Source of the DNA: Kappaphycus alvarezii
Lineage: Eukaryota > Rhodophyta > Florideophyceae > Gigartinales > Solieriaceae
Direction: 5' to 3'
Assembly (NCBI GenBank): GCA_002205965.3
Contig: NADL03000501.1
Location: 2,232,001 to 2,296,000 of the forward strand
DNA: 64,000 bases
The translations under genes and the position numbers were made by a program. This document shows, in pieces, positions 3,583-24,887 of the stretch. How positions within the stretch are numbered: position 1 is the stretch's first letter; every line of letters starts with the position of its first letter. Below the pieces are notes generated by a model that was not told where the DNA came from, did no database searches, and worked only from the letters and a program-made list of their open reading frames with translations.

Positions 3583-3643
3583 CCGGAAGGAAGTTTAATG
3601 CGTTCAGTATCTACTGTGGACTGCGCACGTCCTAACTATACGG

Positions 3644-6600
3644 TTAAGATCTAACCGGATGTACTTCGTCGTCCGTGCGCATCGGTGCTCGCGACAGGAT
3701 AGCTTCAGCGATGGAGGACCACAGGGTGCAACTCAGTCGCTGGTAGATACGGCGGCGGACAATGCCAACTGTCGAGTGACACTTGGACGCGATCCGCGGA
3801 ACTAACTCCTCGATAAATGCAATAGTTCCAGGGGAAGGGGCACCTAGGGAATCAAACGCCAGAGGTCGAAACGTGAAGTTCGGCGTGTAAGGCGCAGAAG
3901 ATGGGCCAGTCGATGGAGCGGGGAGTCGTCGGGCGATGTTGCGTTCCAGGGTTGTAACCTTGTCGCGGGCCGCCAGTTCAGCAGCGCCTCCGGCAGCCTG
4001 GGTCGCCTTGGTGCGAACTGCGGCCTTGAACGGTGAAACGACGGTGATGTCACAGGCAATGGGGCGCAACGTTGTGCCTTCCGGGGTTGGTGGTGGTTGT
4101 ACAAGGATATCGGCGGGGCGGAGCTCAGTGCCCGGGACGAGGAACGGAACCTCTTGCCGAGTATCCAGACCCGCGGCGCGGGTAACGTGCGTCGCAATCG
4201 CATTACATAGCGAGTTGTGGCGGTGACGACGGCCGAAACCAGGGCAGCAGAGGTCGGCGGCGTGATCCCCGAGGGTGTCCAAGGGGTGGTCACAGTGGTG
4301 GCAGTTGAGGGCCATGGAGTCATCATACACTGGCAGTCCGAGGTGACGGCGGAGCATGGTCTGCCAGTGTGTAGTGTGGACCTTCGTAGCTGCCGTGGGA
4401 TGAGCGAAGAGAAACGCCGCAGCGGGGCTGCGGCGGAACGCTAGGCCACGGATGCGATGTCGAATGTCGGCGTCGCTATGGGCGGTCGGGTTTGGGGCAT
4501 TCTCCCAGGAGTCGTCGTGCCAATGTACTCTTGCCCGCGCCTCTTGCTGCACCCGTTTGAGAAGGGTTAGTGTGTTGGTGGGTGAAGCAGCTAGAGTTGG
4601 AGGGTCAAGGGTGGAAAGGTCGACTATTCCGGGGATGGAGAGGGCGAAACGGCGGAGAGAAGGCCCAGCCTGACGGAGGAGGAAGGACCGGTCGCCGCGG
4701 TAGCGGCCAGAAGCTAGTGCACAAGCACGCGGCGTGGCGTATGCGGAAGTTCGCTGCCGTGCGGGCGCAGCATCAATGATGCTGGCGGCGGCAGCGCCGT
4801 GGAGGCACGAGGCGATGCTTTCGAAGCCCTGGCCTCCGAGGTGCATGGGGAGGCACACTTGGTCCCAGGCTCGGTCCGTGAGAGCTATGCCGTGTAACTT
4901 TTCATATGATGACCGTTGTAGATCATCAAATTCTTCAGCGGCGGACTCTGCTAAGCGCGGATCTGAGAGCTTGAATGCATGCGATAGGAGGCATGCAGAG
5001 GCACAGATCCGGTGCATGTGGAACCGGGCGCGGGCGTCGCGGACCAGCAGGAGGCGGTCCAGGGTACGGCGGCACTGAGCAATCTTAGACCGGAGAAAAC
5101 TCTCCGTGAACGTTTTGTTCCCAATGGGGGCCCCTAGAAGCGGAAAGCCGTCCCGCGAGCATTCGGCGAGAGGGAATTCCGCTAAGAGGGCTGCTCGATC
5201 CGGCGGCATGACGTGAGGCCAATGTATGCGTGTCTTCCGTTGGTTGACGTGGAACCCAACCGTGGGACCATCTCGGGCAAGGAGCCGGAGCGCCTGACGG
5301 ATGGCGCCAAGGTTCCCGACGATCGTGCCGTCATCGGCGTACCATTGGCAGAGAGCAATGTTGGGGATCTCAGCAACCCGACGGATGAGGGGTTGAATCG
5401 TTAGCGAGAACAACAACATGCTGGCCGGGTCACCCTGTTGGGTGCCCTGGGCACTTGGTATGACGGTGCGATCCCGGTTCGGGACAAGCAATGGCGGTTG
5501 CATTCGGCCATAGATCATGTTTGCGAAGCGGGCTAGCGAGGGGGCGAGCATTGGTAGGTGGTCCAGCATAGACTGCCGATCAACGCGGTTAAAGGCGTTG
5601 TTAGCGTCTATGAGGACCGTGGCGACGTTCGGGGTGGCGGAGAAGCGGCGTAGTGTCGTGCGGGTGTCGTGGACAATAGAGTCCAACCCGGCTTTAACAC
5701 CATTGGCCGTCTGATGCGGCGACAGAACCGAGTGTGAATCGGCTATTGCGGCGGGGAGCAGTGCCTTCGTCACTATCCTGCGAAGCACAGACCCGATGGC
5801 GATCGGGCGGACCTTGTCGGGAGTCGGCTGCAGCGGGAGGAGCGTCGCCGCTGCCACGAGGGGAAGCACAGCGTCCGGGAGTTCCCCCCGTGCGAGCCGG
5901 GAAACGAGCTGTGTCAGGACACGCAGACCAGTCACGCCGGCCTCAGGACTGACGCGAGTCTTAACCAAGAGGTGGAACCAGCGGGACGGCGTTCGTTCGG
6001 GTCCGGCGGTGGTGTCCCGCGGGACGCCGCGGACCGCGTGTTCCACAGCGGCCTCAGTGATGCACGGGGGCGGCGGGAGTCGTCCTTCCGGGAGCGGCGA
6101 GACAGGGCGCGGCGGGGTCGGGTGCAGATCCCTGAGCCGCTGAATCGTCGCCGGGTCGTTGACGTCGGCGAGCGGGCCATTGTGGAGGGCGCGCATGGCC
6201 TTACCGTATCGCGCATCAGCGCAAAGGGCCTCTGCACGACGGGCGCGCCCGATGTCGCCGGGGACCGTTGGGGCATACAGCGTGTTTCGTTCCCACCATT
6301 CAAGCCGTGCTTGGTGTGCTGCGAGAGCTTCGGCCCATAGTGCTCCCCACTGTGAGCCCGTGTGCGCACGACGGAGGCGCTCTCGGAGGGCGATCCGTTG
6401 GCTCTTGGGGTCCCGCCATCCGCGCTCTCCTCGAAGACAGCGACGGAGGACAGCCGTGGGCAGCATGTGGAGGTGAAGGAATGCTCGTTGAGTGGCGTCT
6501 TCCCCACGAGCGTTCGCCGCAGCTTTCACCAACTTGATAAACAGGAGGATAAATTGCGAGAGGCAGGGGGCGGGAATATCTTGGAAGATATCCCTGTCGC

Positions 6601-6700
6601 GGTAGGGTGTTGAGAGGATTTCCAGGGGAGTGGGCAAGGGGAATGACGCCGATGTATCATGCGGCGTGGGGTCCGATTCCATGGGGTGGACCGAATCCAT
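3644..6700 (-). CDS. ORF2: reverse transcriptase with restriction-like endonuclease (non-LTR)
   Basis: This is a complete open frame of 1018 residues. Reverse transcriptase occupies about residues 235-500: motif A LIDANNAFNRVDR (catalytic Asp365), motif B GTQQGDPASM (about 419-428), motif C WYADDG (Asp456, Asp457), then motif D. A long connector follows. Next come a zinc finger (Cys800, Cys803, His813, Cys818) and the endonuclease core with RPADIL (861-866) and IACDIT (881-886). A CCHC finger followed by a PD-D/E-type nuclease at the C-terminus is the arrangement of early-branching non-LTR elements (R2, CRE and NeSL-like), which usually insert at specific sequences by target-primed reverse transcription. 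No N-terminal APE-type endonuclease is seen. The first ATG (6700) is used; a second lies six codons on. All expected catalytic residues are present, so the protein may be active. Confidence 0.92.
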   Translation of the reverse strand: MDSVHPMESDPTPHDTSASFPLPTPLEILSTPYRDRDIFQDIPAPCLSQFILLFIKLVKAAANARGEDATQRAFLHLHMLPTAVLRRCLRGERGWRDPKSQRIALRERLRRAHTGSQWGALWAEALAAHQARLEWWERNTLYAPTVPGDIGRARRAEALCADARYGKAMRALHNGPLADVNDPATIQRLRDLHPTPPRPVSPLPEGRLPPPPCITEAAVEHAVRGVPRDTTAGPERTPSRWFHLLVKTRVSPEAGVTGLRVLTQLVSRLARGELPDAVLPLVAAATLLPLQPTPDKVRPIAIGSVLRRIVTKALLPAAIADSHSVLSPHQTANGVKAGLDSIVHDTRTTLRRFSATPNVATVLIDANNAFNRVDRQSMLDHLPMLAPSLARFANMIYGRMQPPLLVPNRDRTVIPSAQGTQQGDPASMLLFSLTIQPLIRRVAEIPNIALCQWYADDGTIVGNLGAIRQALRLLARDGPTVGFHVNQRKTRIHWPHVMPPDRAALLAEFPLAECSRDGFPLLGAPIGNKTFTESFLRSKIAQCRRTLDRLLLVRDARARFHMHRICASACLLSHAFKLSDPRLAESAAEEFDDLQRSSYEKLHGIALTDRAWDQVCLPMHLGGQGFESIASCLHGAAAASIIDAAPARQRTSAYATPRACALASGRYRGDRSFLLRQAGPSLRRFALSIPGIVDLSTLDPPTLAASPTNTLTLLKRVQQEARARVHWHDDSWENAPNPTAHSDADIRHRIRGLAFRRSPAAAFLFAHPTAATKVHTTHWQTMLRRHLGLPVYDDSMALNCHHCDHPLDTLGDHAADLCCPGFGRRHRHNSLCNAIATHVTRAAGLDTRQEVPFLVPGTELRPADILVQPPPTPEGTTLRPIACDITVVSPFKAAVRTKATQAAGGAAELAARDKVTTLERNIARRLPAPSTGPSSAPYTPNFTFRPLAFDSLGAPSPGTIAFIEELVPRIASKCHSTVGIVRRRIYQRLSCTLWSSIAEAILSRAPMRTDDEVHPVRS

Positions 6701-6785
6701 GGTGGGGAGGAGCGGAGTTAGGCCGACTGGCCTGTTGACTGATGGTTGGGCCCCTGCGCACCTTGTACGGCAGCCATCATTGGCT

Positions 6786-7298
6786 TCATGGAAACGACCG
6801 GTGCGGACTCGTTACCCATCGTTGCCGCGGAGGCGACGGTGGGAGGGAGAGCGGCCCTGGGCGCCGGTGTTGCGTTGGGCACCATGAGGAACTCCGATGC
6901 CTGGGCTTCTTCAATTGCGGGGCATCGGCGTTTTGACGCCGACGGGGAAGAGCCCGGGGAGCGGAGTGTGAGGTCCGGAGTGTGTCCAGCGGCGGGGCGG
7001 GGAGCGGCAGGGGGGAGGAGGGTGTGCCCCCGTTGGGGCGTTTGGGGGCTTGTGCGGGGCCGGGTGAGGCCGCGACGGTTTTGGTCGGGGCCGGGGCGGT
7101 GGGTTTGGCGGGATGTTCGGTCGGTGTTTGAGCGGGCGTGCGGGCGGGATTCCCGCGGGTCGGGCGGCGCGCCTCAGCAATGAGGCGGGCATCGTGACGG
7201 AGGGCTATCGCCATGGCGTTGCGGACGTGAGGGGCAACCCACGAACGCAGTTTGGGGCTCACCAGGCGAGCCGCTTCACGTTGGAGGCGGGTGGCCAC
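6786..7298 (-). pseudogene. Family A ORF1 (gag-like), truncated, N-terminal frame
   Basis: This fragment lacks its N-terminus because the copy is truncated at 7304. Its first 45 or so residues (for example LRSWVAPHVRNAMAIALRH) align with the last third of the family B ORF1 N-terminal frame (LRSWVLPYVRTALATTLRH). After a proline-rich stretch the homology to B moves to the -1 frame, where KRRCPAIEEAQASEFLMVP is read at about 6870-6930. The frame given here therefore covers true protein only in its first half. No named domain is recognised. Confidence 0.6.
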
Positions 7299-7308
7299 AC
7301 CATCCCGA

Positions 7309-7332
7309 AGGAAGTTTAATGCGTTCAGTATC
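7309..7332 (-). mobile_element. Mini-copy of the family A 3' end (about 24 bases)
   Basis: Only the last two dozen bases of the element (plus-strand AGGAAGTTTAATGCGTTCAG and four more) stand between copy 2 and copy 3, flanked on both sides by the same CCCGAAGG junction bases. It is an insertion truncated almost at its 3' end. It shows that each junction is a separate insertion event. Confidence 0.85.
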
Positions 7333-7337
7333 CCGAA

Positions 7338-8613
7338 GGAGGAAGTTTAATGCGTTCAGTATCTACTGTGGACTGCGCACGTCCTAACTATACGGTTAAG
7401 ATCTAACCGGATGTACTTCGTCGTCCGTGCGCATCGGTGCTCGGGACAGGATAGCTTCGGCGATGGAGGACCACAGGGTGCAACTCAGTCGCTGGTAGAT
7501 ACGGCGGCGGACAATGCCAACTGTCGAGTGACACTTGGACGCGATCCGCGGAACTAACTCCTCGATAAATGCAATAGTTCCAGGGGAAGGGGCACCTAGG
7601 GAATCAAACGCCAGAGGTCGAAACGTGAAGTTCGGCGTGTAAGGCGCAGAAGATGGGCCAGTCGATGGAGCGGGGAGTCGTCGGGCGATGTTGCGTTCCA
7701 GGGTTGTAACCTTGTCGCGGGCCGCCAGTTCAGCAGCGCCTCCGGCAGCCTGGGTCGCCTTGGTGCGAACTGCGGCCTTGAACGGTGAAACGACGGTGAT
7801 GTCACAGGCAATGGGGCGCAACGTTGTGCCTTCCGGGGTTGGTGGTGGTTGTACAAGGATATCGGCGGGGCGGAGCTCAGTGCCCGGGACGAGGAACGGA
7901 ACCTCTTGCCGAGTATCCAGACCCGCGGCGCGGGTAACGTGCGTCGCAATCGCATTACATAGCGAGTTGTGGCGGTGACGACGGCCGAAACCAGGGCAGC
8001 AGAGGTCGGCGGCGTGATCCCCGAGGGTGTCCAAGGGGTGGTCACAGTGGTGGCAGTTGAGGGCCATGGAGTCATCATACACTGGCAGTCCGAGGTGACG
8101 GCGGAGCATGGTCTGCCAGTGTGTAGTGTGGACCTTCGTAGCTGCCGTGGGATGAGCGAAGAGAAACGCCGCAGCGGGGCTGCGGCGGAACGCTAGGCCA
8201 CGGATGCGATGTCGAATGTCGGCGTCGCTATGGGCGGTCGGGTTTGGGGCATTCTCCCAGGAGTCGTCGTGCCAATGTACTCTTGCCCGCGCCTCTTGCT
8301 GCACCCGTTTGAGAAGGGTTAGTGTGTTGGTGGGTGAAGCAGCTAGAGTTGGAGGGTCAAGGGTGGAAAGGTCGACTATTCCGGGGATGGAGAGGGCGAA
8401 ACGGCGGAGAGAAGGCCCAGCCTGACGGAGGAGGAAGGACCGGTCGCCGCGGTAGCGGCCAGAAGCTAGTGCACAAGCACGCGGCGTGGCGTATGCGGAA
8501 GTTCGCTGCCGTGCGGGCGCAGCATCAATGATGCTGGCGGCGGCAGCGCCGTGGAGGCACGAGGCAATGCTTTCGAAGCCCTGGCCTCCGAGGTGGGGAG
8601 GCACACTTGGTCC
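7338..8613 (-). mobile_element. Family A copy 3, 5'-truncated
   Basis: The copy begins at the 3' end at about 7338 and is cut at 8613, near ORF2 residue 612. A 4-base deletion (GCAT) at about 8600 relative to other copies removes part of the codons just inside the break. It joins copy 4 through TCCGGAGG. Confidence 0.9.
7396..8604 (-). pseudogene. Family A ORF2, C-terminal fragment (copy 3)
   Basis: About 400 residues, equal to ORF2 residues from about 620 to 1018: connector, CCHC finger and endonuclease core, with RPADIL present. The RT catalytic motifs are absent because of 5' truncation. The frame is intact because the insertion is young, not because the fragment is expected to be expressed. 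Confidence 0.85.
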
Positions 8614-10252
8614 GGAGGAAGTTTAATGCGTTCAGTATCTACTGTGGACTGCGCACGTCCTAACTATACGGTTAAGATCTAACCGGATGTACTTCGTCGT
8701 CCGTGCGCATCGGTGCTCGGGACAGGATAGCTTCGGCGATGGAGGACCACAGGGTGCAACTCAGTCGCTGGTAGATACGGCGGCGGACAATGCCAACTGT
8801 CGAGTGACACTTGGACGCGATCCGCGGAACTAACTCCTCGATAAATGCAATAGTTCCAGGGGAAGGGGCACCTAGGGAATCAAACGCCAGAGGTCGAAAC
8901 GTGAAGTTCGGCGTGTAAGGCGCAGAAGATGGGCCAGTCGATGGAGCGGGGAGTCGTCGGGCGATGTTGCGTTCCAGGGTTGTAACCTTGTCGCGGGCCG
9001 CCAGTTCAGCAGCGCCTCCGGCAGCCTGGGTCGCCTTGGTGCGAACTGCGGCCTTGAACGGTGAAACGACGGTGATGTCACAGGCAATGGGGCGCAACGT
9101 TGTGCCTTCCGGGGTTGGTGGTGGTTGTACAAGGATATCGGCGGGGCGGAGCTCAGTGCCCGGGACGAGGAACGGAACCTCTTGCCGAGTATCCAGACCC
9201 GCGGCGCGGGTAACGTGCGTCGCAATCGCATTACATAGCGAGTTGTGGCGGTGACGACGGCCGAAACCAGGGCAGCAGAGGTCGGCGGCGTGATCCCCGA
9301 GGGTGTCCAAGGGGTGGTCACAGTGGTGGCAGTTGAGGGCCATGGAGTCATCATACACTGGCAGTCCGAGGTGACGGCGGAGCATGGTCTGCCAGTGTGT
9401 AGTGTGGACCTTCGTAGCTGCCGTGGGATGAGCGAAGAGAAACGCCGCAGCGGGGCTGCGGCGGAACGCTAGGCCACGGATGCGATGTCGAATGTCGGCG
9501 TCGCTATGGGCGGTCGGGTTTGGGGCATTCTCCCAGGAGTCGTCGTGCCAATGTACTCTTGCCCGCGCCTCTTGCTGCACCCGTTTGAGAAGGGTTAGTG
9601 TGTTGGTGGGTGAAGCAGCTAGAGTTGGAGGGTCAAGGGTGGAAAGGTCGACTATTCCGGGGATGGAGAGGGCGAAACGGCGGAGAGAAGGCCCAGCCTG
9701 ACGGAGGAGGAAGGACCGGTCGCCGCGGTAGCGGCCAGAAGCTAGTGCACAAGCACGCGGCGTGGCGTATGCGGAAGTTCGCTGCCGTGCGGGCGCAGCA
9801 TCAATGATGCTGGCGGCGGCAGCGCCGTGGAGGCACGAGGCAATGCTTTCGAAGCCCTGGCCTCCGAGGTGCATGGGGAGGCACACTTGGTCCCAGGCTC
9901 GGTCCGTGAGAGCTATGCCGTGTAACTTTTCATAAGATGACCGTTGTAGATCATCAAATTCTTCAGCGGCGGACTCTGCTAAGCGCGGATCTGAGAGCTT
10001 GAATGCATGCGATAGGAGGCATGCAGAGGCACAGATCCGGTGCATGTGGAACCGGGCGCGGGCGTCGCGGACCAGCAGGAGGCGGTCCAGGGTACGGCGG
10101 CACTGAGCAATCTTAGACCGGAGAAAACTCTCCGTGAACGTTTTGTTCCAATGGGGGCCCCTAGAAGCGGAAAGCCGTCCCGCGAGCATTCGGCGAGAGG
10201 GAATTCCGCTAAGAGGGCTGCTCGATCCGGCGGCATGACGTGAGGCCAATGT
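8614..10252 (-). mobile_element. Family A copy 4, 5'-truncated
   Basis: It runs from the 3' end at 8614 to a truncation at 10252, near ORF2 residue 495. The junction with copy 5 reads GTCCCGGAGTGG. A one-base deletion in a C-run at about 10148 shifts the frame near the truncated end. Confidence 0.9.
8672..10249 (-). pseudogene. Family A ORF2, C-terminal fragment with N-terminal frameshift (copy 4)
   Basis: The last 490 or so residues equal ORF2 residues 528-1018, including the CCHC finger and endonuclease. The first 35 residues of the open frame are out of frame because one C is missing at about 10148 (TTGTTCCAATG where other copies have TTGTTCCCAATG). RT motifs A to C are absent. Confidence 0.85.
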
Positions 10253-10262
10253 GTCCCGGAGT

Positions 10263-10519
10263 GGAAGTTTAATGCGTTCAGTATCTACTGTGGACTGCGC
10301 ACGTCCTAACTATACGGTTAAGATCTAACCGGATGTACTTCGTCGTCCGTGCGCATCGGTGCTCGGGACAGGATAGCTTCGGCGATGGAGGACCACAGGG
10401 TGCAACTCAGTCGCTGGTAGATACGGCGGCGGACAATGCCAACTGTCGAGTGACACTTGGACGCGATCCGCGGAACTAACTCCTCGATAAATGCAATAGT
10501 GCCAGGGGAAGGGGCACCT
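10263..10519 (-). mobile_element. Family A copy 5, short 3' fragment
   Basis: About 257 bases of the 3' end, coding for the last 60 or so ORF2 residues plus the 3' UTR. It carries a T-to-G change at about 10501 and A-to-G changes close to the break. It joins copy 6 through CTCCCGAGGGG. Confidence 0.9.
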
Positions 10520-10533
10520 GGGGCTCCCGAGGG

Positions 10534-11812
10534 GAGGAAGTTTAATGCGTTCAGTATCTACTGTGGACTGCGCACGTCCTAACTATACGGTTAAGATCTA
10601 ACCGGATGTACTTCGTCGTCCGTGCGCATCGGTGCTCGGGACAGGATAGCTTCAGCGATGGAGGACCACAGGGTGCAACTCAGTCGCTGGTAGATACGGC
10701 GGCGGACAATGCCAACTGTCGAGTGACACTTGGACGCGATCCGCGGAACTAACTCCTCGATAAATGCAATAGTTCCAGGGGAAGGGGCACCTAGGGAATC
10801 AAACGCCAGAGGTCGAAACGTGAAGTTCGGCGTGTAAGGCGCAGAAGATGGGCCAGTCGATGGAGCGGGGAGTCGTCGGGCGATGTTGCGTTCCAGGGTT
10901 GTAACCTTGTCGCGGGCCGCCAGTTCAGCAGCGCCTCCGGCAGCCTGGGTCGCCTTGGTGCGAACTGCGGCCTTGAACGGTGAAACGACGGTGATGTCAC
11001 AGGCAATGGGGCGCAACGTTGTGCCTTCCGGGGTTGGTGGTGGTTGTACAAGGATATCGGCGGGGCGGAGCTCAGTGCCCGGGACGAGGAACGGAACCTC
11101 TTGCCGAGTATCCAGACCCGCGGCGCGGGTAACGTGCGTCGCAATCGCATTACATAGCGAGTTGTGGCGGTGACGACGGCCGAAACCAGGGCAGCAGAGG
11201 TCGGCGGCGTGATCCCCGAGGGTGTCCAAGGGTGGTCACAGTGGTGGCAGTTGAGGGCCATGGAGTCATCATACACTGGCAGTCCGAGGTGACGGCGGAG
11301 CATGGTCTGCCAGTGTGTAGTGTGGACCTTCGTAGCTGCCGTGGGATGAGCGAAGAGAAACGCCGCAGCGGGGCTGCGGCGGAACGCTAGGCCACGGATG
11401 CGATGTCGAATGTCGGCGTCGCTATGGGCGGTCGGGTTTGGGGCATTCTCCCAGGAGTCGTCGTGCCAATGTACTCTTGCCCGCGCCTCTTGCTGCACCC
11501 GTTTGAGAAGGGTTAGTGTGTTGGTGGGTGAAGCAGCTAGAGTTGGAGGGTCAAGGGTGGAAAGGTCGACTATTCCGGGGATGGAGAGGGCGAAACGGCG
11601 GAGAGAAGGCCCAGCCTGACGGAGGAGGAAGGACCGGTCGCCGCGGTAGCGGCCAGAAGCTAGTGCACAAGCACGCGGCGTGGCGTATGCGGAAGTTCGC
11701 TGCCGTGCGGGCGCAGCATCAATGATGCTGGCGGCGGCAGCGCCGTGGAGGCACGAGGCAATGCTTTCGAAGCCCTGGCCTCCGAGGTGCATGGGGAGGC
11801 ACACTTGGTCCC
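10534..11812 (-). mobile_element. Family A copy 6, 5'-truncated and frameshifted
   Basis: It is truncated at 11812 near ORF2 residue 612, almost the same point as copy 3. One G is missing from a run at about 11230 (CCAAGGGTGG against CCAAGGGGTGG), which splits ORF2 into frames at 10591-11229 and 10791-11804 within the zinc-finger region. It joins copy 7 through TCCCGGAGG. Confidence 0.9.
10591..11804 (-). pseudogene. Family A ORF2 fragment broken by a 1-base deletion (copy 6)
   Basis: The upstream part (to about 11230) encodes the connector up to the first two zinc-finger cysteines. The downstream part (10591-11229) encodes the rest of the finger, the endonuclease core and the C-terminus. 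The break lies between Cys803 and His813 of the reference ORF2. RT motifs are missing through 5' truncation. Confidence 0.85.
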
Positions 11813-14800
11813 GGAGGAAGTTTAATGCGTTCAGTATCTACTGTGGACTGCGCACGTCCTAACTATACGGTTAAGATCTAACCGGATGTACTTCGTCGTC
11901 CGTGCGCATCGGTGCTCGGGACAGGATAGCTTCGGCGATGGAGGACCACAGGGTGCAACTCAGTCGCTGGTAGATACGGCGGCGGACAATGCCAACTGTC
12001 GAGTGACACTTGGACGCGATCCGCGGAACTAACTCCTCGATAAATGCAATAGTTCCAGGGGAAGGGGCACCTAGGGAATCAAACGCCAGAGGTCGAAACG
12101 TGAAGTTCGGCGTGTAAGGCGCAGAAGATGGGCCAGTCGATGGAGCGGGGAGTCGTCGGGCGATGTTGCGTTCCAGGGTTGTAACCTTGTCGCGGGCCGC
12201 CAGTTCAGCAGCGCCTCCGGCAGCCTGGGTCGCCTTGGTGCGAACTGCGGCCTTGAACGGTGAAACGACGGTGATGTCACAGGCAATGGGGCGCAACGTT
12301 GTGCCTTCCGGGGTTGGTGGTGGTTGTACAAGGATATCGGCGGGGCGGAGCTCAGTGCCCGGGACGAGGAACGGAACCTCTTGCCGAGTATCCAGACCCG
12401 CGGCGCGGGTAACGTGCGTCGCAATCGCATTACATAGCGAGTTGTGGCGGTGACGACGGCCGAAACCAGGGCAGCAGAGGTCGGCGGCGTGATCCCCGAG
12501 GGTGTCCAAGGGGTGGTCACAGTGGTGGCAGTTGAGGGCCATGGAGTCATCATACACTGGCAGTCCGAGGTGACGGCGGAGCATGGTCTGCCAGTGTGTA
12601 GTGTGGACCTTCGTAGCTGCCGTGGGATGAGCGAAGAGAAACGCCGCAGCGGGGCTGCGGCGGAACGCTAGGCCACGGATGCGATGTCGAATGTCGGCGT
12701 CGCTATGGGCGGTCGGGTTTGGGGCATTCTCCCAGGAGTCGTCGTGCCAATGTACTCTTGCCCGCGCCTCTTGCTGCACCCGTTTGAGAAGGGTTAGTGT
12801 GTTGGTGGGTGAAGCAGCTAGAGTTGGAGGGTCAAGGGTGGAAAGGTCGACTATTCCGGGGATGGAGAGGGCGAAACGGCGGAGAGAAGGCCCAGCCTGA
12901 CGGAGGAGGAAGGACCGGTCGCCGCGGTAGCGGCCAGAAGCTAGTGCACAAGCACGCGGCGTGGCGTATGCGGAAGTTCGCTGCCGTGCGGGCGCAGCAT
13001 CAATGATGCTGGCGGCGGCAGCGCCGTGGAGGCACGAGGCGATGCTTTCGAAGCCCTGGCCTCCGAGGTGCATGGGGAGGCACACTTGGTCCCAGGCTCG
13101 GTCCGTGAGAGCTATGCCGTGTAACTTTTCATATGATGACCGTTGTAGATCATCAAATTCTTCAGCGGCGGACTCTGCTAAGCGCGGATCTGAGAGCTTG
13201 AATGCATGCGATAGGAGGCATGCAGAGGCACAGATCCGGTGCATGTGGAACCGGGCGCGGGCGTCGCGGACCAGCAGGAGGCGGTCCAGGGTACGGCGGC
13301 ACTGAGCAATCTTAGACCGGAGAAAACTCTCCGTGAACGTTTTGTTCCCAATGGGGGCCCCTAGAAGCGGAAAGCCGTCCCGCGAGCATTCGGCGAGAGG
13401 GAATTCCGCTAAGAGGGCTGCTCGATCCGGCGGCATGACGTGAGGCCAATGTATGCGTGTCTTCCGTTGGTTGACGTGGAACCCAACCGTGGGACCATCT
13501 CGGGCAAGGAGCCGGAGCGCCTGACGGATGGCGCCAAGGTTCCCGACGATCGTGCCGTCATCGGCGTACCATTGGCAGAGAGCAATGTTGGGGATCTCAG
13601 CAACCCGACGGATGAGGGGTTGAATCGTTAGCGAGAACAACAACATGCTGGCCGGGTCACCCTGTTGGGTGCCCTGGGCACTTGGTATGACGGTGCGATC
13701 CCGGTTCGGGACAAGCAATGGCGGTTGCATTCGGCCATAGATCATGTTTGCGAAGCGGGCTAGCGAGGGGGCGAGCATTGGTAGGTGGTCCAGCATAGAC
13801 TGCCGATCAACGCGGTTAAAGGCGTTGTTGGCGTCTATGAGGACCGTGGCGACGTTCGGGGTGGCGGAGAAGCGGCGTAGTGTCGTGCGGGTGTCGTGGA
13901 CAATAGAGTCCAACCCGGCTTTAACACCATTGGCCGTCTGATGCGGCGACAGAACCGAGTGTGAATCGGCTATTGCGGCGGGGAGCAGTGCCTTCGTCAC
14001 TATCCTGCGAAGCACAGACCCGATGGCGATCGGGCGGACCTTGTCGGGAGTCGGCTGCAGCGGGAGGAGCGTCGCCGCTGCCACGAGGGGAAGCACAGCG
14101 TCCGGGAGTTCCCCCCGTGCGAGCCGGGAAACGAGCTGTGTCAGGACACGCAGACCAGTCACGCCGGCCTCAGGACTGACGCGAGTCTTAACCAAGAGGT
14201 GGAACCAGCGGGACGGCGTTCGTTCGGGTCCGGCGGTGGTGTCCCGCGGGACGCCGCGGACCGCGTGTTCCACAGCGGCCTCAGTGATGCACGGGGGCGG
14301 CGGGAGTCGTCCTTCCGGGAGCGGCGAGACAGGGCGCGGCGGGGTCGGGTGCAGATCCCTGAGCCGCTGAATCGTCGCCGGGTCGTTGACGTCGGCGAGC
14401 GGGCCATTGTGGAGGGCGCGCATGGCCTTACCGTATCGCGCATCAGCGCAAAGGGCCTCTGCACGACGGGCGCGCCCGATGTCGCCGGGGACCGTTGGGG
14501 CATACAGCGTGTTTCGTTCCCACCATTCAAGCCGTGCTTGGTGTGCTGCGAGAGCTTCGGCCCATAGTGCTCCCCACTGTGAGCCCGTGTGCGCACGACG
14601 GAGGCGCTCTCGGAGGGCGATCCGTTGGCTCTTGGGGTCCCGCCATCCGCGCTCTCCTCGAAGACAGCGACGGAGGACAGCCGTGGGCAGCATGTGGAGG
14701 TGAAGGAATGCTCGTTGAGTGGCGTCTTCCCCACGAGCGTTCGCCGCAGCTTTCACCAACTTGATAAACAGGAGGATAAATTGCGAGAGGCAGGGGGCGG

Positions 14801-14901
14801 GAATATCTTGGAAGATATCCCTGTCGCGGTAGGGTGTTGAGAGGATTTCCAGGGGAGTGGGCAAGGGGAATGACGCCGATGTATCATGCGGCGTGGGGTC
14901 C
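11813..14901 (-). mobile_element. Family A copy 7, truncated just inside the ORF2 start
   Basis: It contains the 3' UTR and all of ORF2 except the first eight or nine codons, so both candidate ATG codons of the reference are lost. It abuts the 3' end of the full-length family B copy through CCGAAG. It is nearly identical to copy 2. Confidence 0.9.
11871..14864 (-). CDS. ORF2 reverse transcriptase/endonuclease, N-terminally trimmed (copy 7)
   Basis: This is an open frame of about 1010 codons to the truncation; no ATG remains near the normal start, and 14864 is only an alternative start codon. RT motifs A (LIDANNAF), B (GTQQGDPASM) and C (YADD), the CCHC finger and the RPADIL/CDIT endonuclease core are all intact. 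It could in principle give an active enzyme if translated from a fused upstream start, but no start is evident, and the sequence just upstream is the 3' UTR of the family B copy. I regard it as a very young 5'-truncated insertion. Confidence 0.75.
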   Translation of the reverse strand: MPTPLEILSTPYRDRDIFQDIPAPCLSQFILLFIKLVKAAANARGEDATQRAFLHLHMLPTAVLRRCLRGERGWRDPKSQRIALRERLRRAHTGSQWGALWAEALAAHQARLEWWERNTLYAPTVPGDIGRARRAEALCADARYGKAMRALHNGPLADVNDPATIQRLRDLHPTPPRPVSPLPEGRLPPPPCITEAAVEHAVRGVPRDTTAGPERTPSRWFHLLVKTRVSPEAGVTGLRVLTQLVSRLARGELPDAVLPLVAAATLLPLQPTPDKVRPIAIGSVLRRIVTKALLPAAIADSHSVLSPHQTANGVKAGLDSIVHDTRTTLRRFSATPNVATVLIDANNAFNRVDRQSMLDHLPMLAPSLARFANMIYGRMQPPLLVPNRDRTVIPSAQGTQQGDPASMLLFSLTIQPLIRRVAEIPNIALCQWYADDGTIVGNLGAIRQALRLLARDGPTVGFHVNQRKTRIHWPHVMPPDRAALLAEFPLAECSRDGFPLLGAPIGNKTFTESFLRSKIAQCRRTLDRLLLVRDARARFHMHRICASACLLSHAFKLSDPRLAESAAEEFDDLQRSSYEKLHGIALTDRAWDQVCLPMHLGGQGFESIASCLHGAAAASIIDAAPARQRTSAYATPRACALASGRYRGDRSFLLRQAGPSLRRFALSIPGIVDLSTLDPPTLAASPTNTLTLLKRVQQEARARVHWHDDSWENAPNPTAHSDADIRHRIRGLAFRRSPAAAFLFAHPTAATKVHTTHWQTMLRRHLGLPVYDDSMALNCHHCDHPLDTLGDHAADLCCPGFGRRHRHNSLCNAIATHVTRAAGLDTRQEVPFLVPGTELRPADILVQPPPTPEGTTLRPIACDITVVSPFKAAVRTKATQAAGGAAELAARDKVTTLERNIARRLPAPSTGPSSAPYTPNFTFRPLAFDSLGAPSPGTIAFIEELVPRIASKCHSTVGIVRRRIYQRLSCTLWSSIAEAILSRAPMRTDDEVHPVRS

Positions 14902-14959
14902 CGAAGAAACTTTACTTCATTGAGTATCTATCGTGTACACTGCAGGACTGACTATACGG

Positions 14960-17900
14960 CTAAGAACTAACCGGATGTTCCACGTCAGGCACGTGCAGTG
15001 GGGCTCGCGATAGAATCGCCATTGCAATAGAAGACCACAGTGTGCAACTAATGCGCTGATAAATACGTCTGCGGATCACTGCTGTGGTTGTGTTGAACTT
15101 CTCTGCGATGCGCGGGATGAAGTCTTCGATGAACAGGATAGAGGCGGGGGATGGGGCACCCAAGGAGTCGAAAGCCAGGGGCTGAAACTTGAAGTTCGGT
15201 TCCTGGAGGGTGTTGTGCGAAGGGGGCGGGATGCGGCGTACCAGTTTGCGCTCCAGGTCTGTGACTTTGTCTCGATGGGCAATGTCGGCGGCGCCGCCGG
15301 CCATTTGGGTGGCCCTTGTGCGCACACCTTGTTTGAACGGCGAGACAATGGTTAGGTCGCAGGCTATGGGGCGGACCTGTTGACCAGTGGGCAGGGGGGG
15401 GTTGTATGAGAATGTCCGCAGGACGGATATTCGTTCCCGGGACAAGGAGCGGGACTTCGTATTGGCAGTCCAGGCCCGCGGCGCGAGCAACGTGGTAGGC
15501 GAAAACGTTGCGCAGCGAGTTGTGGCGGTGCGGGCGGCCGAAGCCGGCAGGGCAGAGGTCAGCCGCGTGGTCCCCGAGTGCGTCCAAAGTTTGATTGCAG
15601 TGGGCACAGGTGAGCGGGCGGGAGTCGTCGTATACGGGGAGGCCTAGGTGCCGGCGGAGCATGGTCTGCCAGTGGGCCGAGGACACCACCGTAGCGGTTG
15701 TGGGGTGAGCGATGAGAAAAGCGGCGGCGGGGCTGTTCCGGAACGCCAGGCCACGGATCCGATGTCGAACTTCTTGAGTGCTGTGCTGAGCCGGGTTGGG
15801 GTGTGTCAACCATGAGTCGTCGCGCCAGTGGACCTTTGCCTGTGCCTCCTGCTGCACACCATTTAAGAAGGTTTGGAGGTTGGATGGTTTGGCAGCAAGC
15901 AGGCATGGGTCAAAGGGGCCGAGGTCGACGGAGTACGGGCGCCCAGGGATACATTGCAGGAAATCACGGATTCGCGGCAAGGCTTGTCGGACCAGGAACG
16001 CCCTGTCACCTCGGTATCGGTGACCAGAGACGGCGGCAGAACGTTGCGTGGTATACGATGCCGATCTCTCACGTGCCGGAACCGCGTCGATGATACTAGC
16101 TGCACCGAGCCGTGTAGGAACGGAGAGATGAGGGTAAATCCCTGACCTCCCTGGCGGATGGGTAACGTGACTTGGTCCCATGCAGTGTCTGTGAGGGCGA
16201 TCCCGTGTAGCTCCGAGTACGACGACCTCTGCAGGGCGTCAAAGGCTTGTGCAGCGGGGGCCGAGTGTTGTGGGTCGGCGAGCCGGAACGCGTGGGTGAC
16301 GAGGCATGCCGACGCGCACAGCCGGTGCATGTGGAAACGGGCGCGGGGGTCACGAATGTGGGTCAGCAGTCGGAGGGTGCGGCGGCACCCATCGACCTTG
16401 TCCCGTAGGTATGCATCGGTGAAGGCCCGGTTGCCCATCGGCGCTCCTAGGAGCTCGAAGCCGTCGCGCGAGCACTCGGACAGATGAAAAACCCGGAGGA
16501 ATTCCGTGCGGTCCGGCAGGAGCGTGTTCGGCCAGTAAATGCGCGTCTTCCTCGCGTTGACATAGAGGCCCACAGCCGGACCCTCAGCCTGCAGGAGGTG
16601 GAGAGCGCGGCGCAGACCCTGAAGTGTCCCTATGAGAGTCCCGTCATCCGCGTACCATTGATTAAGCACGATGTCGCTGTCCTCGGCGATTTTCCGAATT
16701 AATGGTTGGATCGTGAGGGAAAACAGCAACATACTGGCCGGGTCGCCCTGCTGGGTGCCCTGAGCACTCGAGATGACCGTGTTCTGGCGATTCGGTATAA
16801 GCAACGGTGGCTGAATACGACCGTATATCATATTCACGAAGCGGGCCAGAGAAGGAGCGAGTGCAGGAAGTTGAGACAGCATTGACTGGCGATCAACGCG
16901 GTTGAAAGCGTTGTGCGCGTCAATGAGGACCGTGGCAACATGCGGAGCACCAGTGAAACGGCGAAGCAGGGTGCGAGTGTCATGGATGACCGCGTCCATC
17001 CCGGCCTTGATACCGTTGGCCGTTTGGAATGGCGCGAGGAAGTCTCGAGAGTCATCGATGGCGCTCGGCAGCAGCGTCTTGGTGACGATGCGGCGGAGGA
17101 CCGACCCCACAGCGATGGGACGAATTTTGTCCGGTCTCGGCCGTAGCGGGAGTAATGTTGCGGCAGCGAGCAGGGGCAGGACCGAGTCCGGCAGTTCCCC
17201 ACGCGCGATCCGCATCACCAACTTCGTAAGCACACTTTTCCCTGTCACCCCGGCGGCCGGGCTGACCGATGTTTTGACTAGCAAGTGGAACCAGCGTGCC
17301 GGCGTGCGGTCCGGTCCCGCGGTCGTACCACGAGAAATACCTCGTACAGCCTGCTCTACGGCGTCTGCCGTGATTGATGGTGGAGGAGGAAGGCCATCTT
17401 CAGGATGGGCGTGATCGGGCGCGGGGGCGCGGGGTGAAGATCACGCAGCGCTTGTATGGTGTGCGGGTCGTTCACATCGGCTAGCGGAGCGTTGTGCAGG
17501 GACCGCATGGCCTTGCCGTAGCGGGCGTCTGCACAGAGGGCTTCAGCGCGACGGGCGCGCCGAGCGTCGCTGGAGCCCGAGCCGTAGGCGGGGCGGTGCT
17601 GCTGGATCCATTCAGAGCGTGCTTCATGGGCGCGAAGGGCTTCAAACCACAAGGTGTTCCACTCAGCTCCGGTATGGGCGCGTCGGATTCGGGCACTTAG
17701 TGCGGCCCGTTGACCTTTGTTATGCTGCCAGCCATCCTCCCCGCGCAAGCTGCGGCGGAGGACAGCGGTTGGCAGCATGTGGAGGTGCAGGAAGGCACGG
17801 TAGGTGGCCTCGTCCCCCCTTGCGTTGGCGGCGGCTTGTACCAGCTTGATAAACAGGAGAGTGAAGGGCTTGAGACATGGGAATGGGATATCCTGGAAGA

Positions 17901-17997
17901 TGTCCCTTTCCCGGTATGGGGTGCGGAGGATGTCTTCGGGGCTTGGTAAGGGAGAGGCAGCGGAGGAGGGAGGATGGGGTGGGGTGGAGATGTCCAT
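14960..17997 (-). pseudogene. Family B ORF2 (RT plus restriction-like endonuclease), three frameshifts
   Basis: The start ATG at 17997 matches the N-terminal region of family A ORF2. A frameshift at about 17400 precedes the RT. The RT part (15863-17284) keeps motif A LIDAHNAFNRVDR, motif B GTQQGDPASM and motif C WYADDG. A second frameshift at about 16100 lies in the connector. The third part carries the zinc finger (CAHCNQTLDALGDHAADLC) and RPADIL. A third frameshift in a G-run at about 15395 leads to the last part (14960-15607) with IACDLT and the C-terminus. The gene is therefore dead although all domains are present, and it is older than the family A copies. Confidence 0.88.
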
Positions 17998-18008
17998 GGG
18001 GAGGATGC

Positions 18009-18455
18009 TTAGGCGGAGGAGCCGTCACCCGACCGCACTCCTTCCATTGCGGACGCACCGACAGCTGGAGGAAGGGGGCAGCGGGGGTCTTGAGTGGGTC
18101 CCTGGGTCGGAGGTGGGACATCTTGCATGCCTATGGACGACGGCGGCATGGCGGCGTGTGTGGCGGACTCCCGACCCTGTGGCGCCGAGGAGGCGACAGT
18201 GGGCGGCAGAACGGCCGGGAGCGTCGGGGTTGCGGTGGGCACCATCAGGAACTCCGCCGCGGGGGCCTCTTCGGATGCAGCGCAGCGGCGTTTGGTCGCC
18301 GAGGGTGAAGAGCCCGGGGATTGCAGGGTGAGGTCGGGGGATTGTTGCGGGGCGTGCCCGGGGGCGGGAGGGGCGGAGGAGGCCGGTAGCGCGTTGGGGC
18401 GCTTGTTGCGGGCGGAGCCAGGAGAGGTCGGGGCGGTGGGGTGAGCGGGGCTCAC
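18009..18455 (-). CDS. Family B ORF1 C-terminal segment, -1 frame
   Basis: 148 residues overlapping the end of the first ORF1 frame by four bases; the only start-like codon is GTG, so independent initiation is unlikely in a eukaryote. It contains a basic/acidic block KRRCAASEEAPAAEFLMVP conserved with family A. It ends 11 bases before the ORF2 ATG at 17997. It could be reached by -1 frameshifting from the upstream frame, or it may be a remnant of one continuous ORF1. Confidence 0.5.
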   Translation of the reverse strand: MSPAHPTAPTSPGSARNKRPNALPASSAPPAPGHAPQQSPDLTLQSPGSSPSATKRRCAASEEAPAAEFLMVPTATPTLPAVLPPTVASSAPQGRESATHAAMPPSSIGMQDVPPPTQGPTQDPRCPLPPAVGASAMEGVRSGDGSSA

Positions 18456-19324
18456 AACGGGTGGGCGGGTGGGATTGGCGGGGGTCTTGGTGGGACGGGG
18501 GTCTTGGGTGGGACGGGGGTCTTGGGTTGGGCGGGTGAGGGGCGAGCTCGGGCGGCACGACGGGTGTCGATGACGTCGCGAGCGTGGTGGCGCAGGGTCG
18601 TTGCGAGGGCCGTGCGGACGTAGGGAAGGACCCAGGAGCGAAGGGTTGGGTCGAGTAGGCGGTTGGCCTCTCGGCCAAGGCGTGTCACGACTCCTTGGGA
18701 AGCGGAGTCATCCAGGGCTGCGGCGGTGGCCGCGATGGTCGTCGTTGTGGTTTGCAGGTCCGGAAACATGCACTGGAGGTGGGCTAGGATGGAGAACATC
18801 TCCTGTCGGGCAGCATCGGGGAAGTAAATGAACGTCCATTTTCCCACGTGAGGGATGAGGACGTGCGGGGGCAGCGCGGTGTTGGCGAGGGCGGCAGCCT
18901 CCCCGAGGAACTGTTGGGCAGCCTGGTAGGAGGCGAAGGAGCGGTCCGGGGTGGTGGCGATGCCCAAGTGGGCGAGTTGCGGGGCGGGAGGGGGCGTTGG
19001 CTCAAGCTCCCCCGTGCGCGGATTGAGACGACCGGGGGCGGAGGCGCCGAGAGCGACGAGCTCCCGAGCACGGGCGAGGGCCTGGGGAGAGGCATTGGCC
19101 GGTTGGCCAATGAGCGCTTGAGCCTGCGGGAGGCTCATGACACGTGCGCCAATAGCAGGGTCGACGCGTGGAAGCTCGACCTTGGTGATGGGCACTAGTG
19201 TGGGGGCGGTTTGTGGGCGGCGGGGCGGGCGTGACGCAACGGCGGCATAGGATGTACCCATCCATGCCGAGCGCGGCGGGGCGCCGGGCGGGCGCGCGGA
19301 AGGCGCCGGGGGGGAAGGGGGCAT
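18452..19324 (-). CDS. Family B ORF1 (gag-like), N-terminal frame
   Basis: A 290-residue frame starting at the first ATG after the element's 5' leader. It is rich in Ala and Pro. The central region (about 100-235) looks globular and includes WTFIYFPDAARQEMFSIL and VLPYVRTALATTLRH. The last 50 residues are a proline-rich low-complexity tail with a short PKTPVP-type repeat. No zinc knuckle or known domain is recognised. Position and order (ORF1 then ORF2) suggest a nucleic-acid-binding chaperone that packages the element RNA. The homologous C-terminal block continues in the -1 frame (18009-18455). Confidence 0.7.
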   Translation of the reverse strand: MPPSPPAPSARPPGAPPRSAWMGTSYAAVASRPPRRPQTAPTLVPITKVELPRVDPAIGARVMSLPQAQALIGQPANASPQALARARELVALGASAPGRLNPRTGELEPTPPPAPQLAHLGIATTPDRSFASYQAAQQFLGEAAALANTALPPHVLIPHVGKWTFIYFPDAARQEMFSILAHLQCMFPDLQTTTTTIAATAAALDDSASQGVVTRLGREANRLLDPTLRSWVLPYVRTALATTLRHHARDVIDTRRAARARPSPAQPKTPVPPKTPVPPRPPPIPPAHPL

Positions 19325-19470
19325 GAGGGTGGTGACGTTGGTTGTTGGAAAAGTGTTTGTTTTGGAGCGATTTCGAAGAAAAAGTAGTGGAGGAGCTTGT
19401 GACTAAGAAGACGAGACGGTTTGGAGAGACGAGACAGGGGCCTCCCGGGAAATTGTTCTATCTATTGAGG

Positions 19471-19479
19471 TATAAATAG
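19471..19479 (+). promoter_or_regulatory. TATA box upstream of the permuted tRNA gene
   Basis: A perfect TATAAATAG stands 60 bases before the first tRNA-homologous base (19539). In the permuted gene the internal B box precedes the A box, so an upstream TATA element could help position RNA polymerase III. Function is inferred from position only. Confidence 0.5.
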
Positions 19480-19538
19480 CTTGTCTCAAAAATTGTTATC
19501 GCGGGAATCGGAAGTGGTTGAATAGGGTGCGCGCAACG

Positions 19539-19628
19539 TTCAGGTCGTAGTATACAGTGTATGCGTGAGTTCGAATCTCACCGGTGTCACATTCATGGCA
19601 CCGTGGCCGAGTGGTCTAAGGCGCTATG
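19539..19628 (+). tRNA. Circularly permuted tRNA-Leu(CAG) gene (3' half before 5' half)
   Basis: The 3' half comes first: anticodon loop TTCAGGT (19539-19545, anticodon CAG at 19541-19543), 3' anticodon stem CGTAG (19546-19550), a long variable arm with ATAC/GTAT stem (19551-19564), T arm GTGAG-TTCGAAT-CTCAC (19565-19581), acceptor strand CGGTGTC (19582-19588) and discriminator A (19589). Seven bases (19590-19596) follow, then the 5' half: acceptor GGCACCG (19597-19603), TG, D arm GCC-loop-GGC (19606-19622), G26, and 5' anticodon stem CTATG (19624-19628). Joined across the permutation the acceptor stem pairs 7/7 (one G-U) and the anticodon stem 5/5 (one G-U). The long variable arm and A73 fit leucine. 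CCA is not encoded. A T4 terminator lies 12 bases downstream. The alternative is two adjacent tRNA-Leu fragments. Confidence 0.72.
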
Positions 19629-19640
19629 CACCAATTCTTC

Positions 19641-19644
19641 TTTT
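19641..19644 (+). terminator. T4 RNA polymerase III terminator after the tRNA 5' half
   Basis: A run of four T follows the CTATG anticodon stem by 12 bases. It is the expected end of a pol III transcript starting near 19500. It supports transcription of the two halves as one precursor. Confidence 0.5.
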
Positions 19645-19784
19645 CGCTTACGGTAAGCAAAAATCACTTTTAGCCCCTATCTCTATTACTGCGCAAGTGC
19701 GAAAGCACAGCTTCAGCAGTAGCGCATTCCAGACGATGTCCCCGAAACATGGCCCAAACACAAAGATCTCATATAAATTCTATA

Positions 19785-20098
19785 GGGGGAAAATGTGGGG
19801 TGATTTAATATTTGAAAAATATGGTCGGTTGTGGGCCGGAATATCCTACAGGGTGCCCAGTAATACCTCTAAAATTACCCTAAAAAGCCGGCTCAGGGCC
19901 CCCTTGCAGACAGGCTGCGTTGGACAATACTGCCGCGGCAGCGTGCCTCTGAGTAAGTACCGTACGGACCTTACCATATGTCTCAATCGCTCTAACGGCT
20001 GCGTTCCGCGCGACGTCGGTTAGCACCCTACAGGCATCCGGGTGCCATTCTCCGAGAGTAAATATAGGGTTCCAGTGTGGTCGGTCAGCTGCGCCCTT
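19785..20098 (-). repeat. R1 dispersed repeat, longest copy, with C-terminal coding remnant
   Basis: Read on the minus strand this holds an open stretch of about 70 codons ending at a TAG at 19880-19882, with segments GEWHPDACRVLTDVARN, IETYGKVRTVLTQRHAAAA and SNAACLQGG. Related peptides occur at 29.5 kb (EVWHPDAC, EIETYGKVR), 26.7 kb (RHAAAA, SNAACL) and 45.5 kb (VRAVLTQRHAAA, SNAACL). The 3' non-coding part (19785-19876) recurs almost unchanged, inverted, at 43384-43478. I do not recognise the protein. Conservation of amino acids between diverged copies, and a copy that keeps only the 3' end, suggest the 3' end of a retroelement or other autonomous element. Confidence 0.55.
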
Positions 20099-22921: not shown

Positions 22922-23301
22922 GCCTTCTTTTCTTCACGCTTATATCTATCGCCGAATTTTACGTCAAGGAAGATAACAGTGGCTAATGGAGAAAGTTCAT
23001 CTTGTGTCGGCTCGTTACTGAATTTTGCTACTATTTTTGGAGAACGAGGGGTCAAAATGAACTACTTTGTTGTCGAGAAGTCTCCATTCGAAAATATGAT
23101 TAGACGAGCCTAGACTTTAGAGCACAAAGTGTGCGCCTGTACATCGGGTCCGAAGAATTCGTGCTACTGCTCGAACCTGACGCGAAAAAAACCGACAAGA
23201 GGTTTGTCGAAAGCGAAGGTATCGGTAATCACAGCGAAGATTTCACATCCGATTCGAACGCTGGGTCTGATTTATCGGATTAGCCCGAAGAAGAACTTTT
23301 T

Positions 23302-24291
23302 TTGTTCATCCGCGGAGATGTGGTGGAACAAGGAGATGAGAAGCCTTCTGGCGGAGACAGGACCATAGATGAAAATCAAGATGAGGTTAGTGGCGCTCCG
23401 AGGGCTCGTCTGGCGCACCTTCGAGAAGAAGGCCAACGGCGATCAAACGATTCCCTCCGAAGCAATGGGATAGTCACTTTGAAAATTGACGAGCTCCGTC
23501 CCGCCGCGGTTCCAGTGGAACACAAGTTTGAGCTAAAGGACCCAAATCCAGTTTACCAAAGAGCTCGTCGCTTTGCTCCGCGTCACGATGATACGATCCG
23601 ACAAGAAGTTGATAAAATGCTGAAAGCAAGTATTATTAACCCAGCCTCTTCGTCATTGTCCTTTCCTGTAGTGATCGCCTCCACAGAGGACGAAAACCCC
23701 AGATTCTGTGTGAATTACCGCACCATGAACCGTAAGATGAAGGTCGCTCGTTGGCCTCTTCCCAAGATAAGAGCAATATTCGAAGAACTAAATGGTAGTT
23801 CTGTGTTCACTACCCTCGACTTTTTCGCAGGATACTGGCAGATTCGCAGGAGCGAGGAGTGTAAGGAGATGACTACATTTGTTTGCCGTTACGGTACGTT
23901 CAAGTTTGAGATTATGCCCTTTGGCTTCATGAATGCGCCGTCAAATGTTCAGCACATGATGGACTATGCTTCACGGGACATATTCTTTGCCCGTGTTTAT
24001 CTGGACGATTTTGTTGTATTTTTTAGCTTCATCGAGAAGCATATTGATCACTTAAATATAATTTTCGACGCTACCGGAAAGGCTTGTTTGAAGCTCAAAA
24101 TCCCTCAGTATGACATCGTGAAGCCAGCTGTGAAGTCGTTAGAACAAAAACTTGAAAAAAAGGATTTCACGTCAATGAAGAGAAGATTCAGGCTAGCAAG
24201 GAATCCCCGTTCCGAAGGATACGACTCAGTTGTGCCGTTTCACGTGCTTCTACGTCTGGTAATAAGGATTTCAACTGGACAAAGAAAATGA
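23302..24291 (+). pseudogene. Gypsy reverse transcriptase
   Basis: The RT core is readable in one frame: RFCVNYRTMNRKMKVARWPLP, VFTTLDFFAGYWQI (motif A, catalytic Asp), FEIMPFGFMNAPSNVQHMM (motif B) and VYLDDFVVF (motif C, YLDD). The upstream part (KFELKDPNPVYQRARRFAP) is the usual linker before the RT. Past about 24080 the frame carries no RT homology. The catalytic Asp residues are kept, but the polyprotein is broken on both sides. Confidence 0.82.
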
Positions 24292-24308
24292 TGTAGGCAT
24301 TCGGTACT

Positions 24309-24887
24309 TTGAAAGAGAAGCTCACCAATTCACCGGTTCTCTCATTTACACCCTTTGATTCCCCGTTTATAGTGAAATATGACGCTTCAAGCGTCGTAGT
24401 AAGGGCAGCGCTCTCCCAGAAAAACGAAAACGGGAAGACAAACCCCGTACAGTACGTTAGACGCACAATGGACTTGGCTGAGAAGAACTATTCCGCATGT
24501 GAAAGGGAAGCTCTAGCGGTAATTTTCGACTTGCGGAAGTTTCGGGTATACTTGTTGTCGACTAAGCCAATGAAGTTGGTTACCGATCATCAAGCCCTTC
24601 GCTACAGAATTAAAAAGAAATACATCCATGGAAGGTTGGCGCAGTGGATGGAATTTCTTGCTGAGTACGAGTTCGAAGTCGAGTATAGGCCGGGCGCAAA
24701 TATTGGCGCCCCTGGCTTCCTGTCGCGAGCCGTCCCTCCTGGTTCCACACAATCCTCAGGGGTCGATGAAGGAAACTTGTTTGAAACAGTTGGTTCAGTC
24801 GCTGTCGTGGAGGACGGTTCATTGGAATCCCATCTTATTGAGGTCGCTCATCATCTGCAATATTTTAAGATCGAAGAAGAAAACTAA
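24309..24887 (+). pseudogene. Gypsy RNase H
   Basis: The segment FIVKYDASSVVVRAALSQ holds the first catalytic Asp of the gypsy-type RNase H. NYSACEREALAVIFDLRKFRVYL contains the conserved Glu, and LVTDHQALRY the next Asp, followed by the tether QWMEFLAEYEFEVEYRPGA. The frame is open through this domain and stops at 24887, before the integrase. It is in a different frame from the RT fragment at 23302-24291. Confidence 0.8.

Follow-up and report, generated by a model that had tools for sequence, protein, structure and literature searches.

A very probable circularly permuted tRNA-Leu(CAG) gene in Kappaphycus alvarezii with a predicted junction inside the anticodon stem

The 64,000-nucleotide stretch of Kappaphycus alvarezii DNA analysed here (hereafter the window) very probably contains a circularly permuted tRNA-Leu(CAG) gene, with processing of its transcript being predicted from modelled folds. 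The gene would encode a class II tRNA whose 3' part lies upstream of its 5' part, both on the forward strand, with the 7-base spacer CATTCAT between them. With good confidence, we consider a nuclear permuted gene, matured through a predicted bulge-helix-bulge (BHB) pathway and joined at tRNA positions 29/30, to be the best explanation of the locus.

Organization of the permuted locus

The 3' half, which is assigned to tRNA positions 30-73 on the basis of sequence, ARAGORN predictions and BHB geometry, occupies positions 19537 to 19589 of the forward strand, on which all features described below are located. It starts with C30 and comprises the anticodon loop TTCAGGT, the bases CGTAG at tRNA positions 39-43, a long variable arm, the T arm GTGAG-TTCGAAT-CTCAC (19565-19581), the 3' acceptor strand CGGTGTC (19582-19588) and A73 (19589), after which CCA is absent. 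The spacer between the mature 3' and 5' ends (19590-19596), as delimited by the swapped-halves analysis, is followed by the 5' half (19597-19626; tRNA positions 1-29, assigned on the same grounds), which consists of the 5' acceptor strand GGCACCG (19597-19603), the D arm and the start of the anticodon stem, CTA. The T arm, 3' acceptor strand, A73, spacer, 5' acceptor strand and D arm, as well as CTATG (19624-19628), all lie where the earlier note had placed them. Upstream, the TATA-like box TATAAATA (19471-19478) precedes the 3' half by 66 bases, start to start, while a TTTT (19641-19644), representing a candidate Pol III terminator, starts 15 bases past the end of the 5' half. Both of the flanking signals named in the earlier note are therefore present, and they may act as promoter and terminator, respectively.

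The earlier note had proposed that tRNA finders be run on the locus, and ARAGORN returned no tRNA for the unaltered window, irrespective of whether introns were allowed or barred. Joining of the swapped halves produced a complete tRNA: with CCA appended, tRNA-Leu(cag) was predicted for three of four joints, the fourth, which is one base short, giving an undefined 4-base anticodon, and for the 29/30 joint tRNA-Leu(cag) was also predicted without CCA. A permuted-tRNA scan, which demands a T arm plus 3' acceptor strand followed within at most 120 bases by a fully complementary (7/7) 5' acceptor strand, U8 and a D-arm-like stem, gave a single match across both strands of the window, i.e., at this locus only, as opposed to four matches in 200 control windows shuffled in 500-base blocks (approximately 0.02 per window). 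A search against Rfam yielded nothing at the gathering score, and no second copy of the locus (19401-19790) was found within the window.

The joined tRNA possesses the expected architecture. In the ARAGORN drawing the acceptor stem GGCACCG/CGGTGTC is paired at all seven positions, including one G-U, while the variable arm TATAC-AGT-GTATG was seen by eye to form five of five pairs, one of them U-G; ARAGORN draws three of these pairs, and free folding gives six through the addition of G43. The conserved bases U8, G18G19, U33, TTC and A73 were likewise identified by eye. The permuted gene order, the fully paired acceptor stem and the long variable arm with its own stem, all of which had been claimed previously, are thus backed by the sequence, the fold, the ARAGORN results on the swapped halves and the scan when compared to shuffled controls.

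Position of the junction

When the presumed transcript was folded without constraints, the leader GGUGCGCGC (19526-19534) was found to pair with GCGC-UAU-GCACC (19621-19632), generating a helix of 5 bp (GGUGC/GCACC) followed by a UAU bulge of 3 nt, a second helix of 4 bp (GCGC/GCGC) and then the bases AAC. This helix-bulge-helix-AAC motif was recovered in free folding for each of four assumed transcript 5' ends, and its nine helix pairs exhibit probabilities of at least 0.94 for six assumed 5' ends ranging from 19485 to 19510. Helix h' is composed of the leader strand GGTGC (19526-19530) and the trailer strand GCACC (19628-19632; probabilities 0.95-1.00), and the central helix of the leader strand GCGC (19531-19534) and the exon strand GCGC (19621-19624, tRNA positions 24-27; probabilities 0.94-0.99), with the TAT bulge located at 19625-19627 and the AAC at 19535-19537. 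Beyond the BHB, an outer leader strand GAAT (19520-19523) pairs with ATTC (19634-19637) in the free fold.

Cleavage of a BHB falls after the second base of the bulge. Since the BHB rule describes a helix of 4 bp with a 3-nt bulge on either side (available text of PMC4090602), the predicted motif would be cut at UA|U, after 19626 (A29), and at AA|C, and the pairing of the leader with 19621-19632 accordingly sets the junction at 29/30. In the joined product, 5'-...GGCG CUA|CG UUCAGGU CGUAG..., C30-G40 replaces U30-G40, so that the anticodon stem CUACG/CGUAG consists of Watson-Crick pairs throughout (5/5); a joint at 28/29 would yield the same RNA, because an A is present on both sides.

The BHB at the joint, a feature of permuted tRNA genes, is found here in a relaxed, predicted form with a centre of 4 bp and an h' of 5 bp. 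A complete hBHBh' would also include an outer helix h, which here amounts to 0 bp, and in the free fold two bases of the AAC (A19536 and C19537) are also engaged in an anticodon hairpin of 3 bp; the motif is therefore classed as relaxed, comprising the centre, one clean bulge and h'. A second 4-bp/3/3 geometry occurs nearby, at 19635/19521, and yields no valid tRNA. Free folding of the joined tRNA did not return a cloverleaf, and the stability of the whole precursor is ordinary (z -1.56, with 12 of 200 shuffles folding as well).

These results alter several details of the earlier note, which had placed the breakpoint at 31/32 and had judged a full bulge-helix-bulge not to be clear. Five registers give a pairable anticodon arm and the BHB geometry is encountered at 29/30 alone, the 31/32 and 32/33 junctions having been rejected for lack of it, while 37/38 was ruled out by reading the sequence, as no anticodon follows CTATG in the 5' half. 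The CTATG/CGTAG stem described in that note is indeed a pairable register, but its probability in the precursor ensemble is 0.00 for the six 5' ends. Similarly, the suggested ACC/GGT helix does not occur in the free folds, where the leader pairs with 19621-19632 instead; it appears if the CTATG/CGTAG stem is forced, in a fold that is far less stable (-36.8 versus -47.2 kcal/mol).

The chance level of the motif was assessed by replacing the flanks. Mononucleotide shuffles produced a 4-bp centre with an h' of at least 4 bp in 47 of 100,000 cases in the fixed register and in 172 of 100,000 in any valid register, and an h' of at least 5 bp in 15 of 100,000; for dinucleotide shuffles the corresponding counts for at least 4 and at least 5 bp were 68 and 25 of 40,000. 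Real pieces of the window (19.7-64 kb) used as flanks gave 12 and 4 of 40,000, respectively, and pieces with a leader G+C content of 45-60% gave 19 and 8 of 40,000. The motif (h' of at least 4 bp) is unlikely to have arisen by chance, at a level of approximately 0.0003-0.002, which is far from astronomical.

A processing pathway may be outlined from the swapped halves, the complete tRNA that they form on joining and the predicted motif, with expression and every enzymatic step carried over from the known algal pathway. Transcription by RNA polymerase III would begin past the TATA box and end at the TTTT, thus producing a single precursor composed of leader, 3' half (30-73), CATTCAT, 5' half (1-29) and trailer. 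Pairing of leader and trailer is predicted to create the bulge-helix-bulge, both bulges of which would be cut by the tRNA splicing endonuclease, after A29 and before C30, whereupon a ligase would join 29 to 30 to give a circular RNA bearing the anticodon stem CUACG/CGUAG. RNase P and tRNase Z would finally remove CATTCAT, and CCA would then be added.

Genomic surroundings

The window is eukaryotic in kind, as indicated by its LINE-type reverse transcriptase ORFs, a reverse transcriptase/RNase H pair and the lack of an encoded CCA. The LINE-type ORFs are arranged in nested arrays from 1 to 19.4 kb, and the region 1-19401 holds two LINE-like families in nested or tandem copies, which are approximately 99% alike within and approximately 68% alike between families; these arrays are G-rich on the forward strand (approximately 62% GC). 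In one of the families, the similarity of two copies breaks off at an equal offset, at 1886 and 19401, and position 19401, which lies 70 bases before the TATA box, is for this reason probably an element end.

Approximately 150 bases after the tRNA gene, an 81-base repeat is present (19792-19872), which recurs at 43394-43474 on the opposite strand with 95% identity. Further along the window, two adjacent ORFs (23284-24884) specify reverse transcriptase and RNase H domains of the LTR-retrotransposon type, a secreted-looking ORF (48446-49339) has five relatives with 45-78% identity, and a transposase-like frame with an internal TGA (50235-51596) has 15 relatives, 13 of which carry PF03184. Another protein search on the window yielded 25 proteins, of which one, at rank 24, belongs to Folsomia candida and three are labelled simply as hypothetical protein. 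The G+C content changes in steps, i.e., 60-65% up to 20 kb, 39-51% up to 54 kb and 31-35% to the end of the window.

Permuted tRNA-like RNAs in phage contigs

Pattern scans of viral contigs and of genomes, with viral loci being analysed by the permuted-tRNA scan, revealed no recognised relative of the tRNA-Leu(CAG) locus among the matches listed. In viral contigs, the scan gave 17 matches for the 240 loci among the matches listed, 10 of which touch ordinary ARAGORN tRNAs while 7 do not. When a shorter gap limit was applied to 327 viral loci, the scan gave 18 candidates in tRNA arrays of phages that lie outside ARAGORN tRNAs. Candidate loci from IMG/VR include L013, L024, L052, L053, L075, L099 and L241, with further candidates in L252, L298, L309, L323, L324, L325 and L326.

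One set of these candidates, which is YrlA-like, carries a GGATACTTC-type leader element, with leader/trailer complementarity in those members looked at, and another set possesses the leader AAAGACCTGTCAGCAA or similar together with the trailer GGGTCTT. Rescanning of five phage loci gave six YrlA matches of 29.8-47.7 bits, all under the cut-off of 69, and the phage permuted tRNA-like RNAs look, at least in part, like Y RNA-like molecules. In L309 (approximately 690-840) and on the minus strand of L099 (9043-9071), the leader AAAGACCTGTCAGCAA is accompanied by the hairpin GGA-CTGTAAA-TCC, which by eye can be read as a GUA-bearing anticodon arm joined at 28/29; the L309 member had no YrlA match at E values up to 0.5, and these two members may be genuine permuted tRNAs of phages. 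In L404 (2354-2582), which corresponds to positions of approximately 65329-65557 in Gordonia phage VanLee (NC_073474.1), two matches of the YrlA-like type (47.0 and 33.2 bits) were located, and this YrlA-like locus adjoins a Ro-like protein gene. The 33.2-bit match overlaps an annotated tRNA-Arg(tct), whose score against the tRNA model is 26.9 bits, for a cut-off of 29, and which is perhaps a misannotated Y RNA.

Alternative explanations

The locus might represent a dead relic, i.e., fragments that stem from an ordinary tRNA-Leu(CAG) gene duplicated in tandem and that are neither transcribed nor joined, and this reading draws on an origin model in which duplication is followed by loss of the outer halves (PMC3978253), as well as on the nested retrotransposon arrays that stop approximately 70 bases before the TATA box. 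However, local alignments of the halves to the leader and trailer, as compared to shuffles, give no sign that outer halves have been lost (5' half versus leader, p 0.73; 3' half versus trailer, p 0.25), and a degenerate 5' half upstream (AGTGGT) was rejected on the former value. Furthermore, none of the acceptor, T and anticodon stems is disrupted, and the way in which leader and trailer pair agrees with a single exact joint; we regard a relic as unlikely. A working permuted tRNA joined within the anticodon loop, at 31/32 or 32/33, would also have a pairable arm and is recognised by ARAGORN as tRNA-Leu(cag), but the absence of BHB geometry in these registers and the zero ensemble probability of the CTATG/CGTAG pairing make it very improbable.

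YrlA RNAs bind Ro proteins, and a Ro/TROVE protein gene nearby is a YrlA feature. A bacterial-type YrlA (Y RNA-like) RNA with a permuted tRNA-like module, rather than a tRNA gene, was considered because YrlA (RF02553) is the top Rfam match to the region (E 0.41), shares with the locus the permuted order of T arm, acceptor and D arm, and belongs to a kind of RNA that the same crude scan picks up in phage contigs. The match nevertheless scores 17.1 bits, as against the gathering score of 69 and the higher values of the six phage matches, and a search of 19401-19720 for the GGATACTTC, TTACGGA and CGAAG..CTTCG elements revealed none of them, so that no Ro-type element was found. In addition, Pfam matches among the 29 window ORFs scanned are limited to reverse transcriptase/RNase H, so that no Ro/TROVE gene is present among them, while the locus has a whole CAG anticodon arm, i.e., a complete decoding arm, a long variable arm, a TATA box and a T-run; a YrlA identity is thus extremely improbable, and a permuted tRNA-Leu(CAG) gene is the preferred reading.

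Comparison with known permuted tRNA genes

The 34 permuted tRNA genes tabulated in 2014 have junctions at 15/16, 20/21, 37/38, 50/51 and 59/60 (PMC3978253), and a junction at 29/30 falls outside these positions, whereas the 7-base spacer falls within the tabulated 1-74 bases. A permutation at 29/30 is unrecorded in Table 1 of PMC3978253 and in the open literature searched; the consulted portions of PMC9602550 and PMC13353863 add no junction data, PMC4494063 describes one more nucleomorph with permuted Ser genes, and the text of PMC12633428 mentions permuted tRNAs of Auxenochlorella without giving their junctions. Junction position sorts types within permuted tRNA genes and does not define the kind.

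We lean towards the view that the locus represents a new junction class, in which the split lies inside the anticodon stem at 29/30 and a eukaryotic endonuclease acts away from 37/38 on a precursor with no intact anticodon stem and with a D stem that is partly tied up in the motif. The eukaryotic tRNA splicing endonuclease is described as being bound to 37/38 through a ruler mechanism, C. merolae forming the contrast (PMC3978253), which counts against the 29/30 explanation; cutting away from 37/38 is otherwise on record for C. merolae and for certain archaea (PMC3978253, PMC4090602). Should a cut at 29/30 complete the tRNA, this would constitute another instance of recognition outside 37/38, and the locus offers a defined substrate for testing such recognition. 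It also illustrates that a standard tRNA finder misses genes of this kind, and that the breakpoint is best set by the leader/trailer motif rather than by the best-looking halves.

Among known systems, Cyanidioschyzon merolae has permuted tRNA genes of types I-IV, one of which is a Leu(CAG) gene whose junction is at 37/38 and whose spacer is 9 (PMC3978253). The present locus resembles the C. merolae genes in its upstream 3' half, short spacer, predicted BHB at the junction, class II tRNA, upstream TATA and downstream T-run, and differs in having its junction in the anticodon stem, at 29/30, as opposed to 20/21, 37/38, 50/51 or 59/60 (PMC3978253). The permuted order in a eukaryote is shared with the prasinophytes Ostreococcus and Micromonas and with a chlorarachniophyte nucleomorph (PMC3978253), whose permuted tRNAs are frequently class II Ser and Leu (PMC3978253, PMC4494063), although the tabulated green examples include no Leu(CAG) and all prasinophyte and nucleomorph junctions are at 37/38, with the exception of O. 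tauri Ser(CGA) at 15/16, which is marked atypical (PMC3978253). Archaeal introns, finally, occur at 29/30 and 30/31, and those at 29/30 share with this locus both the cut position and the bulge-helix-bulge logic, while sitting in genes of ordinary order rather than in a permuted one (PMC4090602).
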